From Acidimicrobiales bacterium (GTDB lineage: Bacteria; Actinomycetota; Acidimicrobiia; Acidimicrobiales; Aldehydirespiratoraceae), in contig JAQWMR010000001.1 of the NCBI GenBank assembly GCA_029246685.1, positions 219,246 through 283,245 of the forward strand: a stretch of 64,000 nt of DNA. Direction: 5' to 3'. Shown one piece after another: positions 40,548 through 55,851 of the stretch. A program made the translations under genes and the position numbers. Position 1 is the first letter of the stretch. Every line of letters begins with the position of its first letter. The notes under the pieces were generated by a model, which was not told where the DNA came from, did not search any database, and was given only the letters and a program-made list of their open reading frames with translations.

Positions 40548-41336
40548 TCAGACGTCGGGGATTCCCATGTCGAGGTTCGAGCCGGTGATGCCGCCGTCGA
40601 CCCCGACGAACTGGCCGGTGGTGTACGCCGAGATCGGCGCAGCGAGGTAGAGCGCCGCGCCGGCGATCTCTTCGGGCCGCCCGAGCCGCCCGAGCGGAGT
40701 GGCGTCGTTCATCGACTGTTCGAGCTCCGGGGTCTGGAGGACGATGTCGAGTGCGGATGTGGCGATCGAGCCCGGGCACACTGCGTTGACGCGGATCTTC
40801 GGCGCGAGGTCTTGAGCTAGGGCCCGGGTGAGGTGGATCAGCGCCGCCTTCGCCGTGCCGTAGGCGGAGAATCCACGGCTGGCGAACAGGCCGGCCGTGG
40901 ACGCAATGTTGACCACGTTCGCACCGGGTCTATCAACCATGTGCGGCACCGCCAGCTGGGTGAGATTGAACGCTGTCGTCACGTTCCAGCGCATCGCACC
41001 GTCGAAGGCCTTCTCACTGGTGTCCATGAACGCCTGGGGCATCGAGCCTCCGACGTTGTTGACGACCACATCGATCCCGCCTAACTCCGCGACCGCCGTA
41101 TCGACGAGCCCTGACAGGCCGTCGCGAGTTGAGAGATCCCCGGCGACGACAACCGCGCGTCGCCCGTGGTCCTCGATGACCGACGCGACTTCTGTGAGTT
41201 GCTCCTCGGTTCGCGCGCCGATCACGACGTCGGCACCGGCCTCCGCGAACATCACCGCGGTCGCTGCACCGATACCGCGGCCGGCACCGGTGACAATGGC
41301 GACTTTGTCGTCGAGTCGAAATTGGTCGAGTCCCAT
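40548..41336 (-). CDS. Short-chain dehydrogenase/reductase
   Basis: A 262-residue classical SDR. TGAGRGIG lies at 16-23, the NNAG motif is altered to NNVG (93-96), and the catalytic Ser146, Tyr159 and Lys163 are intact. Arg42 after strand 2 (IGART) favours NADP(H). ATG 41336 lies 8 nt downstream of a TACGGT box. The open frame extends upstream, but only this start fits the family. Divergent from the HD-domain gene. Confidence 0.92.
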   Translation of the reverse strand: MGLDQFRLDDKVAIVTGAGRGIGAATAVMFAEAGADVVIGARTEEQLTEVASVIEDHGRRAVVVAGDLSTRDGLSGLVDTAVAELGGIDVVVNNVGGSMPQAFMDTSEKAFDGAMRWNVTTAFNLTQLAVPHMVDRPGANVVNIASTAGLFASRGFSAYGTAKAALIHLTRALAQDLAPKIRVNAVCPGSIATSALDIVLQTPELEQSMNDATPLGRLGRPEEIAGAALYLAAPISAYTTGQFVGVDGGITGSNLDMGIPDV

Positions 41337-41344
41337 GACCAGCG

Positions 41345-41354
41345 ACCGTAGACT
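41345..41354. promoter_or_regulatory. Overlapping divergent -10 boxes, ACCGTAGACT
   Basis: On the plus strand TAGACT (41349-41354) lies 9 nt before GTG 41364. On the minus strand TACGGT (41350-41345) lies 8 nt before ATG 41336. The two boxes share the central TA, so RNA polymerase should be able to open the DNA for only one direction at a time. Confidence 0.55.
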
Positions 41355-41363
41355 TTCGACGCT

Positions 41364-42164
41364 GTGGAAACGACTTCGACTGAACTCTCTGACGCCGACG
41401 CGCTGAACGCCATCATGATGGCGGACGACGTCTCGGGCGCGCTCTGGTCGGCGGTCGACTCCGGGCGGATCGAAGAGCTCGTTCCCGAGCTTCCCGCACT
41501 GCGCATGGAGCAGGACCCGATCCACCGGCACAAGGATGTCCTCTCCCACACCATCGCCGTGGTGGCGAAGACACCGGACGACGTGATCGTGCGCCTGGCC
41601 GCGCTGTTCCACGACATCGCGAAGCCCCGCACTCGCAGCTTCGAGCACGGCGGCGTCACGTTCCGTCACCACGAGGTGGTCGGCGCTCGCATGACGAGGA
41701 AGCGGATGACCTCCCTCGGCTACGACGAACAGGTGGTCGACGACGTGAGTGAGCTCGTGCGCCTCAGCGGCCGGTTCAAGGGCTACGCCGACGGCTGGTC
41801 CGATAGTGCGGTTCGCCGGTATGCCCGCGACGCCGGACCTCTCCTCGGGCGACTCAACGCGCTCATCCGCAGCGACTGCACCACGCGCAACAAGCAGAAG
41901 GCCGCCGATCTGCAGTCCGCCATCGATGACCTCGAGCACCGCATCGCCGACCTCGCGGAGGACGAGCGCCGCGCGGCCGAGCGTCCCCAGGTGGACGGCG
42001 ACGCGGTGATGTCGCACCTCGGCACCGCGGGCGGCCGCCACGTCGGCGACATCCTGAAGATGCTGCTCGAGGTCAAGCGCACGGAGGGCGATCTTCCGGA
42101 GGACGAGATCTACAGCCGGGTCGACGCCTGGTGGGCGGGCAACCGCGACCGCTACGACCTCTAG
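41364..42164 (+). CDS. HD-domain half of a CCA tRNA nucleotidyltransferase-like protein
   Basis: The 266 residues match the C-terminal half of actinobacterial CCA-adding enzymes: ELPALRMEQDPIHRHKDVLSH, the HD motif RLAALFHDIAKPRTRSF, HHEVVGARMTRKRM and RADCTT-like IRSDCTTRNKQKA. The polymerase-beta-type catalytic head that normally precedes this part is absent, and the gene has its own leaderless-type promoter, so it is expressed as a separate HD protein. It may be a phosphohydrolase or a split/decayed paralogue. Whether a full CCA enzyme exists elsewhere cannot be seen here. Confidence 0.82.
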   Translation: METTSTELSDADALNAIMMADDVSGALWSAVDSGRIEELVPELPALRMEQDPIHRHKDVLSHTIAVVAKTPDDVIVRLAALFHDIAKPRTRSFEHGGVTFRHHEVVGARMTRKRMTSLGYDEQVVDDVSELVRLSGRFKGYADGWSDSAVRRYARDAGPLLGRLNALIRSDCTTRNKQKAADLQSAIDDLEHRIADLAEDERRAAERPQVDGDAVMSHLGTAGGRHVGDILKMLLEVKRTEGDLPEDEIYSRVDAWWAGNRDRYDL

Positions 42165-50313: not shown

Positions 50314-50829
50314 TCAGTCCCAGGTCCACTTGGTGGCGCAGGGGCCGAACTCTTCGGGGGTCTCGATCATGCCGAACGCCCGCTCCGGGGTGATCTCGTA
50401 TGCGGCGTTCTGGCCGAGGAATTCGATGACGCCGTCGACGTCGTCGAATCCTTCTTCTGCCGCGTACTTGGCCTGGTAGGCGCGGCCCGTCGCGGTGACA
50501 TGGTCACGGTCGTCATCGATGCGTTTCGCCCGGCCCTCGATCGAGACCACGTTGACCGCGTCGTCGTTGGTGACGACGACTTGATCGTTGGCCGCGAGGT
50601 TGCGGACCTTGCGGGCCTTCGGTGAGCAGCTGAAGCCATACGTTTCGCTCTTCGGTATCTAGACGCCCCACACAGGCATCGCGTGGGGCCGGCCGTTGCC
50701 GTCGGCGGTGACCAGCCAGAAGTTGCGTGACTCGGCGAGTCGTTCCTCTGCCCAGCTCCACGGAAGGGTGCCCTCGAGCTCTTCCGGGACGCCGTAGTCG
50801 GTCATGTGAGGGCGGGTGATGCGAGGCAT
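50314..50829 (-). pseudogene. PPOX-class flavin/F420-binding protein gene with one in-frame TAG
   Basis: From ATG 50829 the frame encodes MPRITRPHMTDYGVPEE through ESRNFWLVTADGNGRPHAMP to VWGV, then TAG at 50659-50661. It continues in frame as IPKSETYGFSCSPKARKVRN, then LAANDQVVVTNDDAVNVVSI to KWTWD. Homologues read VWGVW at the break, so TGG to TAG is likely. All other conserved parts of the split-barrel oxidoreductase are present, which suggests recent inactivation, an assembly error or readthrough. Confidence 0.78.
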
Positions 50830-50835
50830 GAGCGG

Positions 50836-50845
50836 ATCGTAGGTG
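50836..50845. promoter_or_regulatory. Overlapping divergent -10 boxes, ATCGTAGGTG
   Basis: TACGAT (minus strand, 50841-50836) lies 6 nt before ATG 50829. TAGGTG (plus strand, 50840-50845) lies 12 nt before ATG 50858. They share the central TA, as at 41345 and 54844. Confidence 0.5.
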
Positions 50846-50857
50846 CAGAATGAGTCG

Positions 50858-52861
50858 ATGTCCGAGGGTCGCACGGTCTTCGTCGGTGTCGACACCGGCG
50901 GCACCTACACCGACGCGGTCGTCTATGACGATGCTGCCGGCGCGGTCATCGCGAAGGCGAAGGCGCCCACCACGCCCGACGATCTTGCAATCGGAATCGG
51001 TTCGGCGCTGGATCGGGTGCTGCAGACGGCCGCCGTCGATGGGGCGGCCATCGGCCTCGTCTCGTTGTCCACCACGCTGGCGACGAATGCTCTCGTTGAG
51101 GGCGTCGGCCGACCCGCCTGCCTCGTCATGATCGGGTTCGAGGCTGAGGCCGTCACGCGCGGTGGACTGGCGGAGGCGATCGGCTCCGACACGGTGATCT
51201 CGATCGCCGGAGGTCATACGCCCCACGGTGGCGCCCAAGCAGACCTCGATCTCGCCGCGTTGCGCTCCGCCCTCGCCGAGCTGAGCGATGAAGTCGAAGG
51301 ATTCGCGGTGACGGGTCAGTTCGGCGTGCGCAATCCTGAACACGAGATCGCGGCCCGCGACCTCATCCGGGAGACGACCGGGCTTCCCGTCACGTGCAGC
51401 CACGAACTGTGCGACGGCCTGAACGGGCCGAAGCGCTCCGTCACAGCGCTGCTCAACGCCCGTCTCATCGCGATGATCGAGGAGCTCGTTTCCACCACAG
51501 CCGAGATCCTGACCGAGCGGTCCATCGACGCGCCGATCATGGTGGTGCGGGGCAACGGGTCGCTCGTGTCGAGCGACTTCGTGCGCGATCGTCCGGTCGA
51601 GACGATTCTGTCCGGCCCGGCTGCCAGCCTCATCGGCGCGGCTCACCTCGCGGCCGCCGACGATGCGATCATCTCCGACATCGGCGGCACGACCACTGAC
51701 ATCGCTGTTCTGCGCGGCGGGCTCCCGGAGTTCGGTGCCCAAGGCGCAACGGTCGGTGGGCATCAGACGATGGTCGAGGCGGTGCTGATGCACACGCACG
51801 GTCTCGGCGGTGACAGCGAGATCGGTCTGGTTGATCGTGCCGTCGGGGCCCAGCTCCTGGTCGGGCCGCGTCGGGTGGTGCCGATTGTCGTCGCGGCCGA
51901 GACCGACGCAGCCGCCATCGAACAGGCGATCATTCGCCAGCGCAACGCGGAGACCCCACCGTCGGAGTGGTCTGGGATGTTCGTCCGGGCCACGACGCGC
52001 GTCGACGGCGCGAACCTCGATCGCAACGAAGTGGCCGTGCTCGAGGGGATCGGTGACGGGTTGACTGCGGTCGACGTCGTGGTCGGCACAAGCCTTCAGA
52101 CGCGTGCGCTACGACGCCTCGTGACGCGCGGACTCATCCGAATGTGCGGATTCACGCCGACCGACGCGAGCCACGTGCTGGGCACACAAGACACACACGA
52201 GCCGGAGCTGGCCATCGCTGCTGCGGACCTCTTCGCGCAGCGTCGCGACCGCTACGGCAACCCGATCGCCGGCTCGGCGACCGAACTCGCCGAAGCGGTT
52301 GTCGAAGCGCTCACCCGACGTTCGGCCGAGGCACTGCTGGAAGCCGCACTCATTCGAGACGGCCTCTCGGGCGACACAGTCCGGTCTGAACTGGTCGATG
52401 CCGCACTCGATCGCACCGCTGAGACCGCTCGGGCCGATATCGGCCTTGCTGTCCCGCTCGTCGGCCTCGGTGCGCCTGCCGCGAACTACTACCCGGCAAT
52501 CGCCGAGCTTCTCGGCACCGACATCGTTGTGCCGGAGCACGCCGACGTCGCGAACGCGATTGGCGCGGTCGTCGGCAAGGTGCGCATCCGGCGCCAGGTC
52601 ACCGTCACGGCCCCGCGGCGCGGCATCTTCCGTGTCCACGCCGGAGGCGATCCGGAGACGTGCTACGAGAAGGACGACGCGCAGGCCCGCGCGTTCGAAG
52701 TGGCGACCGCGACCGTCCGCTCGGAGATGGTCGATGCCGGCGCGGCCGAGTGTGAGCTCGAGACGTTCTGGAGCGAGCGCTCCGCCGATGTGGAGGGCCG
52801 GGAGATGTTCGTCGAGGGCACGGCGACCGTGATCGGCAGCGGCCGACCGAAGCTCGATTGA
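50858..52861 (+). CDS. Hydantoinase/oxoprolinase family protein (HyuA-type)
   Basis: The 667-residue protein has the ASKHA ATP-binding fold of HyuA/oxoprolinase A subunits: FVGVDTGGTYTDAVVYD at the N-terminus and SDIGGTTTDIAVLRGG about residue 275, with GLNGPKRSVTALLNARLI between. Such enzymes hydrolyse cyclic amides with ATP, or are acetone/acetophenone carboxylase subunits. No HyuB-like partner is adjacent, so the reaction is undefined. ATG 50858 is preferred over GTG 50843, which overlaps the -10 box. Confidence 0.87.
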   Translation: MSEGRTVFVGVDTGGTYTDAVVYDDAAGAVIAKAKAPTTPDDLAIGIGSALDRVLQTAAVDGAAIGLVSLSTTLATNALVEGVGRPACLVMIGFEAEAVTRGGLAEAIGSDTVISIAGGHTPHGGAQADLDLAALRSALAELSDEVEGFAVTGQFGVRNPEHEIAARDLIRETTGLPVTCSHELCDGLNGPKRSVTALLNARLIAMIEELVSTTAEILTERSIDAPIMVVRGNGSLVSSDFVRDRPVETILSGPAASLIGAAHLAAADDAIISDIGGTTTDIAVLRGGLPEFGAQGATVGGHQTMVEAVLMHTHGLGGDSEIGLVDRAVGAQLLVGPRRVVPIVVAAETDAAAIEQAIIRQRNAETPPSEWSGMFVRATTRVDGANLDRNEVAVLEGIGDGLTAVDVVVGTSLQTRALRRLVTRGLIRMCGFTPTDASHVLGTQDTHEPELAIAAADLFAQRRDRYGNPIAGSATELAEAVVEALTRRSAEALLEAALIRDGLSGDTVRSELVDAALDRTAETARADIGLAVPLVGLGAPAANYYPAIAELLGTDIVVPEHADVANAIGAVVGKVRIRRQVTVTAPRRGIFRVHAGGDPETCYEKDDAQARAFEVATATVRSEMVDAGAAECELETFWSERSADVEGREMFVEGTATVIGSGRPKLD

Positions 52862-54078: not shown

Positions 54079-54837
54079 CTAGAACGCGGTGTAGCCACCG
54101 TCCACACACACTTCCTGGCCGGTGTGGAACGTCTGGGACGGATCGGCGAGCCAGGCGCCGACCTCACGGAACTCGCTCGGGTCGGCCCAGCGGCGAACGG
54201 GCGTGCGTTTGGTCGTCACGTCGCGGAATCGGTCGTTCGCATAGGGCGCGGCCGCGAGTTCGGTGATGGTCCAGCCGGGGAGCAGTGAGTTGACCCGGAT
54301 CTGGTGGCGGGCCAGCTCGACGGCCAATGCTCGCATCAGGCCGTTCAGCGCGGTCTTCGACGTGCCGTAGGCCTGATTGCCGGCGGCGCCGTGGATCGAC
54401 GAGGTGGAGGAGATCGTCACCAGGCTGCCGCCCTCGCCCTGGTCGACGAGGTGGCGAGCGGCCTCGCGCAAGGTCGCGAATGCGCCATCGAGGTTGACCG
54501 ACATCACGGTGCGCCAGTCGTCCATCGTGAGATCGAGGATCGACTTCGCGATGCCGCCGTGGCCCGCGTTGGCGAAGCAACCGTCGAGCCGCCCGAAGTC
54601 CTCCCGCGAGCGGTTCATCGTTTCGACGACGGCCTCCTCATCGGCCACGTCGCACACGTAGCTGCGCGCGGTGCCGCCGAGGGCCTCCAGGGCGGCGACG
54701 GCCTCGGTGTTCTTGGCTTCCTTGCGGCCCCAGATCGCCACCGAACCGCCGGCCAGCACGATGCCCTCGGCCATGCCGAGGCCGATGCCGCCGTTACCAC
54801 CCGTGATGACGAACACCTTGCCGCTGAGATCGACCAT
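54079..54837 (-). CDS. Short-chain dehydrogenase/reductase
   Basis: A 252-residue classical SDR. TGGNGGIG lies at 12-19, FANAGHGG at 88-95, and Tyr157 and Lys161 sit in YGTSK. It ends HTGQEVCVDGGYTAF, the usual SDR C-terminus. Trp36-Gly-Arg38 after strand 2 favours NADP(H). ATG 54837 lies 6 nt after TACAGT on the minus strand. Convergent with the HD gene and divergent from the quinone oxidoreductase. Confidence 0.92.
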   Translation of the reverse strand: MVDLSGKVFVITGGNGGIGLGMAEGIVLAGGSVAIWGRKEAKNTEAVAALEALGGTARSYVCDVADEEAVVETMNRSREDFGRLDGCFANAGHGGIAKSILDLTMDDWRTVMSVNLDGAFATLREAARHLVDQGEGGSLVTISSTSSIHGAAGNQAYGTSKTALNGLMRALAVELARHQIRVNSLLPGWTITELAAAPYANDRFRDVTTKRTPVRRWADPSEFREVGAWLADPSQTFHTGQEVCVDGGYTAF

Positions 54838-54843
54838 GACCGA

Positions 54844-54855
54844 ACTGTAGAGGAG
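54844..54855. promoter_or_regulatory. Overlapping divergent -10 boxes and ribosome binding site
   Basis: On the minus strand TACAGT (54849-54844) serves the SDR. On the plus strand TAGAGG (54848-54853) shares the same TA, and AGGAG (54851-54855) lies 9 nt before ATG 54865, so the plus-strand gene could instead use an upstream start site and this Shine-Dalgarno. Confidence 0.45.
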
Positions 54856-54864
54856 ACTCCTGGC

Positions 54865-55851
54865 ATGCGTGCATGGTGTGTGACAGGAACCGGTGAGCCC
54901 GTCGACGTGCTCGAACTGCGGGAGATCGATCCTCCCGAGCCAGGCCCCGGCATGGTGCGACTCCGGGTGGACGCCGCAGCCGTTGGCTTCCCGGACGTCC
55001 TGATGTGTGGAGGGTCGTACCTCTTCACACCGGAGCTGCCCTTCACGCCGGGCCAGGAGGTCGTCGGCACGGTCGACGCGGTCGGCGACGGGGTGGACGG
55101 GGCACTCGTCGGCACGCGCCAGATGGGCGTGACGGCGTTCTACCTGGGTGCGGGCGGCTTCGCGGAGTTCTGCCTCGCCGCGGCCAACACGATCTTCCCC
55201 GCTCCGCCGGAGTTCGATGACGTCACCGCCGCCGGCTTCCACATTCCCTACGTGACCGCCTGGAACGGTCTCGTCGATCGTGCCGCTCTGCAGCCGGAAG
55301 AGACCCTCGTGGTGCTGGGCGCCGCAGGCGGAAGCGGGTCGGCCGCGGTCCTGTTGGGCGCAAGCCTCGGAGCTCGCGTCGTCGCGGTCGCGGGTGGCGC
55401 CGAGAAGGCCGCGTTCTGCCGAGCGCTCGGTGCCGACGATGTGATCGACCACCGCGAGACGCCCGATGTGGCGGCGGCGATCAGCGAGCTGACGGGCGGC
55501 GCGGGGGCTGACGCCATCTTCGATCCCGTTGGCGGCGAGAGCGCGGAGTCTGTGGCCGCGGCGATGGCCAACCACGGTCGGTTCATGCTCGTTGGCTTCG
55601 CCTCGGGCCGCTGGCCGCAGCTCGACCCACGAAGGCTGGTCACCGGCAACTTCTCCGCCATGGGCGTCTATGCGGGTGCCTACGCCCGGCCCCACGTCGA
55701 GGGAATCTACGAGCAGCTCGCGGCTCGGCGCGCAGTCGGGAATCTGCGCTCGATCCCAACGCAAACCTTCGCGTTCTCGGATGTGCCGCTGGCGTTGACG
55801 TCGCTCGCGGACCGCTCGGCTCTCGGGAAGACCGTCGTCGTCAGCGGCTGA
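54865..55851 (+). CDS. NADPH:quinone oxidoreductase-like MDR enzyme
   Basis: The 328-residue zinc-free medium-chain reductase has an N-terminal GroES-like domain with FTPGQEVVGTVDAVGDGVDG, then the nucleotide-binding LVVLGAAGGSGSAAVLLGASL (the AxxGxxG form typical of quinone reductases) and GADAIFDPVGGE. No catalytic- or structural-zinc cysteine set is seen. The substrate could be a quinone or an enoyl compound. Its 3' end overlaps the convergent binding-protein gene by 11 bp. Confidence 0.9.
   Translation: MRAWCVTGTGEPVDVLELREIDPPEPGPGMVRLRVDAAAVGFPDVLMCGGSYLFTPELPFTPGQEVVGTVDAVGDGVDGALVGTRQMGVTAFYLGAGGFAEFCLAAANTIFPAPPEFDDVTAAGFHIPYVTAWNGLVDRAALQPEETLVVLGAAGGSGSAAVLLGASLGARVVAVAGGAEKAAFCRALGADDVIDHRETPDVAAAISELTGGAGADAIFDPVGGESAESVAAAMANHGRFMLVGFASGRWPQLDPRRLVTGNFSAMGVYAGAYARPHVEGIYEQLAARRAVGNLRSIPTQTFAFSDVPLALTSLADRSALGKTVVVSG

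Follow-up and report, generated by a model that had tools for sequence, protein, structure and literature searches.

A palindromic TA shared by two divergent, predicted leaderless genes: a probable bidirectional promoter core in an Acidimicrobiales genome

The divergent pair at 41345 and the leaderless signal

The window, a stretch of 64,000 nucleotides (G000:C5:219246-283245 of a 3.8 Mb genome with a GC content of approximately 66%), contains three divergent gene pairs for which an earlier note had proposed that two leaderless genes share one TA in overlapping -10 boxes. The three 10-mers and the distances to the start codons on which that proposal was built are all present in the sequence. 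The first pair consists of an SDR family oxidoreductase gene of 262 amino acids (40548 to 41336, minus strand; Pfam PF13561, 7e-61; NCBIfam NF005873, over the cut-off) and a gene for an HD-domain protein of 266 amino acids (41364 to 42164, plus strand; PF01966; TIGR02692 positions 212-466, below the cut-off). Between them lies the putative shared core ACCGTAGACT (41345 to 41354, assigned to no strand), whose central TA (41349-41350) stands as T-12/A-11 in both directions, judging from the sequence and its relatives. Both -10 boxes, likewise read in the sequence and in relatives, are TANNNT hexamers at leaderless distance: TACGGT of the SDR gene (41345 to 41350, minus strand) lies 8 nt before the ATG at 41336, and TAGACT of the HD gene (41349 to 41354, plus strand) lies 9 nt before the GTG at 41364. 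These spacings exceed the commonest 6 to 7 nt, so that leaders of 2 to 3 nt are possible. The HD protein stands alone, and its resemblance to the actinobacterial CCA tRNA nucleotidyltransferase is confined to the C-terminal half of that enzyme. Most relatives encode the catalytic PolyA_pol domain elsewhere; it was not found in this assembly (94% complete).

Genes were called with a purpose-written, simple codon-usage gene finder, and start codons were first picked blind to promoters. The start codons rest on this home-made finder, and choosing starts with the signal in view favours the motif, an effect that was controlled by decoys. With promoter-blind starts (n = 1163), the first T of TANNNT fell at -12, -13, -14 and -15 in 76, 69, 39 and 13 genes, against a background outside -12 to -15 of approximately 3 genes per position. 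Across 2.46 Mb of this genome and its sister G004, the counts at the same positions were 179, 130, 79 and 26, against a background of 7.5. Because TANNNT peaks so sharply 12 to 15 nt before start codons, leaderless transcription looks common in this high-GC Acidimicrobiia genome. The peak agrees with the leaderless signal of Actinobacteria as set out in excerpts of two published accounts (PMC3160421, PMC3898074), namely TANNNT approximately 12 nt 5' of the start codon with no strong -35 element. In the same 2.46 Mb, CANNNT was also enriched at -12 (72 versus 19), as was GANNNT (52 versus 23). Genome-wide, CANNNT leaderless promoters, in which C replaces T at -12, carry G at -14 in 73 to 81% of cases; it looks as though an extended -10 element compensates for the missing T.

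The named relatives of this genome are metagenome assemblies of Acidimicrobiales and Acidimicrobiia. The 10-mer at 41345 is identical in relatives of the same genus, and the 8 nt that separate it from the SDR start vary (gaccagcg, ggggcgcg, ggttcgcg, ggatctcg); in the genus g3 the 10-mer is again identical and the spacer is 7 nt. Of the seven genomes of the genus, five had the full pattern, as did one distant genome; the control gave 0 matches. In four further loci (L018, L023, L025 and L030), the core 5' of the HD gene is ATCATAGGCT, which gives TATGAT in reverse; two of these (L023, L025) also have, further left, a minus-strand ATG preceded by a Shine-Dalgarno-like stretch, and the TA is perhaps shared with one leadered gene.

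Separate boxes at 50836 and 54844

At the other two sites, TANNNT was found 12 to 15 nt before the start codon of the minus-strand gene; among the plus-strand genes of the three sites, only that at 41345 has it. The second pair comprises a pyridoxamine-oxidase-like (PPOX-like) gene (50314 to 50829, minus strand; frame translated) and a hydantoinase/oxoprolinase A gene (50858 to 52861, plus strand; PF05378, PF01968). The former has an in-frame TAG at codon 57, and the frame is open, at 167 to 173 amino acids, in six relatives, which points to a pseudogene or an assembly error. Its predicted -10 box, TACGAT (50836 to 50841, minus strand), lies 6 nt before the ATG at 50829, and TANNNT is kept there in same-genus relatives. 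On the same TA the plus-strand hexamer reads TAGGTG; T is missing at -7, and 12 nt separate the hexamer from the ATG at 50858. The hydantoinase gene appears to have a box of its own, CAGAAT (50846 to 50851, plus strand), 6 nt before that ATG. This assignment draws on the CANNNT enrichment at -12 and on the relatives, in nearly all of which a conserved CANNNT box (CAGACT, CAGAAT or CACAAT) stands just 5' of the ATG.

The third pair is built similarly, from a second SDR gene of 252 amino acids (54079 to 54837, minus strand; PF13561, 7e-59) and a zinc-binding dehydrogenase gene of 328 amino acids (54865 to 55851, plus strand; PF00107, 2e-24). TACAGT (54844 to 54849, minus strand), 6 nt before the ATG at 54837, would serve the SDR gene, and GAGACT (54853 to 54858, plus strand), 6 nt before the ATG at 54865, the dehydrogenase gene, the latter assignment resting on G004 and on the GANNNT enrichment at -12. 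On the supposedly shared TA, the plus-strand hexamer reads TAGAGG, without T at -7, and is separated from the ATG by 11 nt. In G004 the equivalent gap is 53 nt, and there TACGCT stays with the SDR gene and GAGACT with the dehydrogenase gene. The Shine-Dalgarno that had been ascribed to the 54865 gene corresponds to the Shine-Dalgarno-like GAGGAG (54850-54855), which is present here and absent in G004. Elsewhere in the order, in a different family, a homologue of this dehydrogenase gene is itself arranged with a perfect shared TA (G041:C13:333036-333063).

Neither site combines A-11 and T-7 in both directions within one shared element. We therefore rejected a shared TA at both, the plus side lacking T at -7 and the relatives showing separate boxes; 50836 and 54844 are best read as pairs of divergent promoters that abut but are separate, their sharing being only apparent. 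The proposal of one TA serving two divergent leaderless genes thus holds up at 41345, with its two-way TANNNT and conserved 10-mer, and fails at the other two.

Recurrence of the shared TA and its mirror base

The earlier note had suggested searching the genome for a shared TA with start codons on both sides. Among 435 divergent pairs in the 2.46 Mb scanned, 14 had one TA that lies 12 to 15 nt from each start codon and has T at -7 in both directions; pairs with T at -7 in one direction only numbered 0. Twelve decoy motifs run through the same caller gave 0 to 2 pairs; with promoter-blind starts there were 5 pairs, and four decoys run in that way gave 0. Two of the 14 pairs are orthologues of others, and one (C5) has weak ORFs. 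In 61 related genomes, the strict palindromic pattern CATN6ANNNTANNNTN6ATG had 54 matches versus 14 for a reversed control (columns summed by hand), and the core ACCGTAGAGT recurs in g3, in g8 and in a second family. The two-sided shared-TA class exceeds chance genome-wide. At the genome-wide rate, approximately 0.4 shared-TA pairs are expected per 64 kb; therefore, one such pair in the window is ordinary. We do not claim that the palindromic pattern is general across the phylum, where the count (100 versus 62 for the control, summed by hand) is too noisy in AT-rich genomes. Functional coupling of the paired genes was also rejected, the nameable families being unrelated enzymes and transporters. 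The equivalent 18-bp pattern gave 16 matches versus 7 for its control (hand-summed). Divergent pairs with interleaved boxes of this 18-bp type, which is rarer in this genome than the shared-TA type, occur at G000:C18:371180 (gap 17) and C18:200886 (gap 20), with TATTCTA and TACGGTA.

The base that makes such a site two-way is the mirror of T-7, four positions before the first T of TANNNT: A there gives a two-way element in the shared-TA register. Mirror A was found in 18 of 333 genes (5.4%) with codirectional or distant divergent neighbours, and in 10 of 16 for divergent pairs 20 to 29 nt apart (promoter-blind starts), the latter being a per-gene count in which the two sides of one pair are not independent. 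The 5.4% compares with 12.5% for TANNNT anywhere in the genome (binomial p 2e-5), 10% for non-promoter intergenic TANNNT (p 0.03) and 12% (18/147) for C-12/G-12 promoters (p 0.013). These data are suggestive of an approximately two-fold avoidance of mirror A in one-way leaderless promoters. Depletion of A directly after the hexamer (TANNNTA, the 18-bp class) was considered as a second avoidance signal and rejected: it reflects TpA scarcity, because TANNNT anywhere in the genome shows a nearly equally low value (4.6%).

We tentatively hypothesize, while regarding it as somewhat doubtful, that in leaderless-rich bacteria the mirror of T-7 is a single-base switch by which evolution sets promoter direction, with selection acting against A in one-way promoters and head-to-head pairs 22 to 28 nt apart carrying it, so that one substitution would make a promoter of one gene serve two. 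The scarcity of mirror A may instead reflect an intrinsic preference of the polymerase at -16, with no selection for direction, a reading to which we give nearly an even chance. It fits the equal depletion in codirectional genes and in genes with distant divergent neighbours, because of which harm from antisense RNA alone is no explanation. However, the C-12/G-12 promoters, which are unable to read backwards in the shared-TA register, carry A more often than one-way TANNNT promoters, and A is tolerated in the two-sided pairs; both argue against a preference at -16.

The HD gene itself offers a comparison. Mirror A, the reverse T at -7, was present at 11 of 11 loci where an SDR gene lies close by and divergent, and at 0 of 20 with a codirectional neighbour, a contrast for which the gene tree allows only approximately three independent changes and which we therefore rejected as a phylogenetically independent test. 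The neighbour state of L003-L005 and L007 was taken from SDR homology matches, since these loci are truncated and the SDR frame is open at the locus end. This contrast bears on the possibility that 41345 acts as a promoter towards the HD gene alone, with the SDR gene transcribed from another site and the reverse TACGGT a passenger of a conserved GTAGACT box. CCGTAGACT, TAGACT included, is indeed kept 5' of the HD gene at loci that lack an adjacent SDR gene as well, but the reverse T at -7 is precisely the base that goes missing with a codirectional neighbour, and despite the few independent changes we consider a one-way promoter unlikely. Chance combined with TA palindromy, whereby each TANNNT has a TA on the other strand and a nearby divergent start makes the box look shared, accounts for 50836 and 54844, but for 41345 it is already disfavoured, and very improbable, in view of the excess of two-sided pairs over decoys, the excess of pattern matches over the reversed control and the conserved 10-mer.

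A bidirectional core and its known counterparts

The layout, enrichment and conservation observed at 41345 suggest that this site is, in all likelihood, a bidirectional promoter core from which the housekeeping polymerase would transcribe a leaderless or near-leaderless mRNA of the SDR gene or of the HD gene, with 50836 and 54844 as separate abutting promoters. One palindromic TA would supply T-12/A-11 to two opposed -10 boxes (ANNNTANNNT), and the polymerase would bind in either orientation, one at a time. Melting would then open the DNA to the left or to the right of the TA, and an mRNA beginning at or very close to the start codon would be made for one gene or the other. Because the gap is only 22 to 28 nt, any upstream (-35) contacts would, for either direction, have to lie within the opening codons of the opposing gene. 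With sigma70, melting proceeds from -11 downstream. Since the TA is T-12/A-11 on both strands, two bubbles on opposite sides of it would be possible, contrary to the idea in the earlier note that one bubble serves two directions. Polymerase binding is the only step that geometry and general knowledge of sigma70 suggest to be mutually exclusive, and its effect on expression, which the earlier note took to be possibly exclusive or balanced, would depend on activity.

Where genes are leaderless, transcription is expected to begin at the two start codons, and bidirectional promoters may therefore be found by sequence alone, without RNA mapping. Selection on two-way promoters has so far been approached mainly through start-site maps of few species; the present approach opens a test, across many uncultured genomes, of selection for or against them. 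The recurrent shared-TA class and the possible avoidance of the mirror base are the parts most worth following.

The closest known systems are the overlapping -10 bidirectional promoters described by Warman, Grainger and colleagues (PMC12825309, PMC10268837), which, like 41345, have a pseudo-symmetric -10 region. In Escherichia coli, 23 bp is among three preferred start-site separations (PMC12825309). The start codons at 41345 are 28 bp apart, predicting start sites 23 bp apart at 7-nt spacing, and the site has what marks the 23-bp class in sequence, namely two opposed -10 elements with common bases and a spacing that allows starts approximately 23 bp apart. Binding in one orientation excludes the other in those promoters, as in our model. 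In tests of five E. coli bidirectional promoters, base-level activity was too low for the two directions to compete, and competition was seen only upon activation of one of them; abutting separate -10 boxes of the kind at 50836 and 54844 are not counted as bidirectional promoters (PMC12825309). In contrast to the commonest, 18-bp register, in which -11 and -7 pair reciprocally (PMC10268837), sharing at 41345 would run through the palindromic TA, and its predicted bubbles lie on opposite sides of that TA. The shared-TA class differs further in that both products are predicted to be protein-coding leaderless mRNAs, both start codons are tied in position to the promoter, and the mere 22 to 28 nt between the genes amount to the promoter core alone. 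The excerpted accounts of leaderless TANNNT promoters in Actinobacteria note closely juxtaposed divergent promoters as common in Mycobacterium tuberculosis and, within those excerpts, do not describe one TA common to two leaderless genes (PMC3160421, PMC3898074). Taken together, these comparisons suggest that 41345 is an ordinary-looking member of a known promoter type, the 23-bp class, in an unusually compact, predicted leaderless form.
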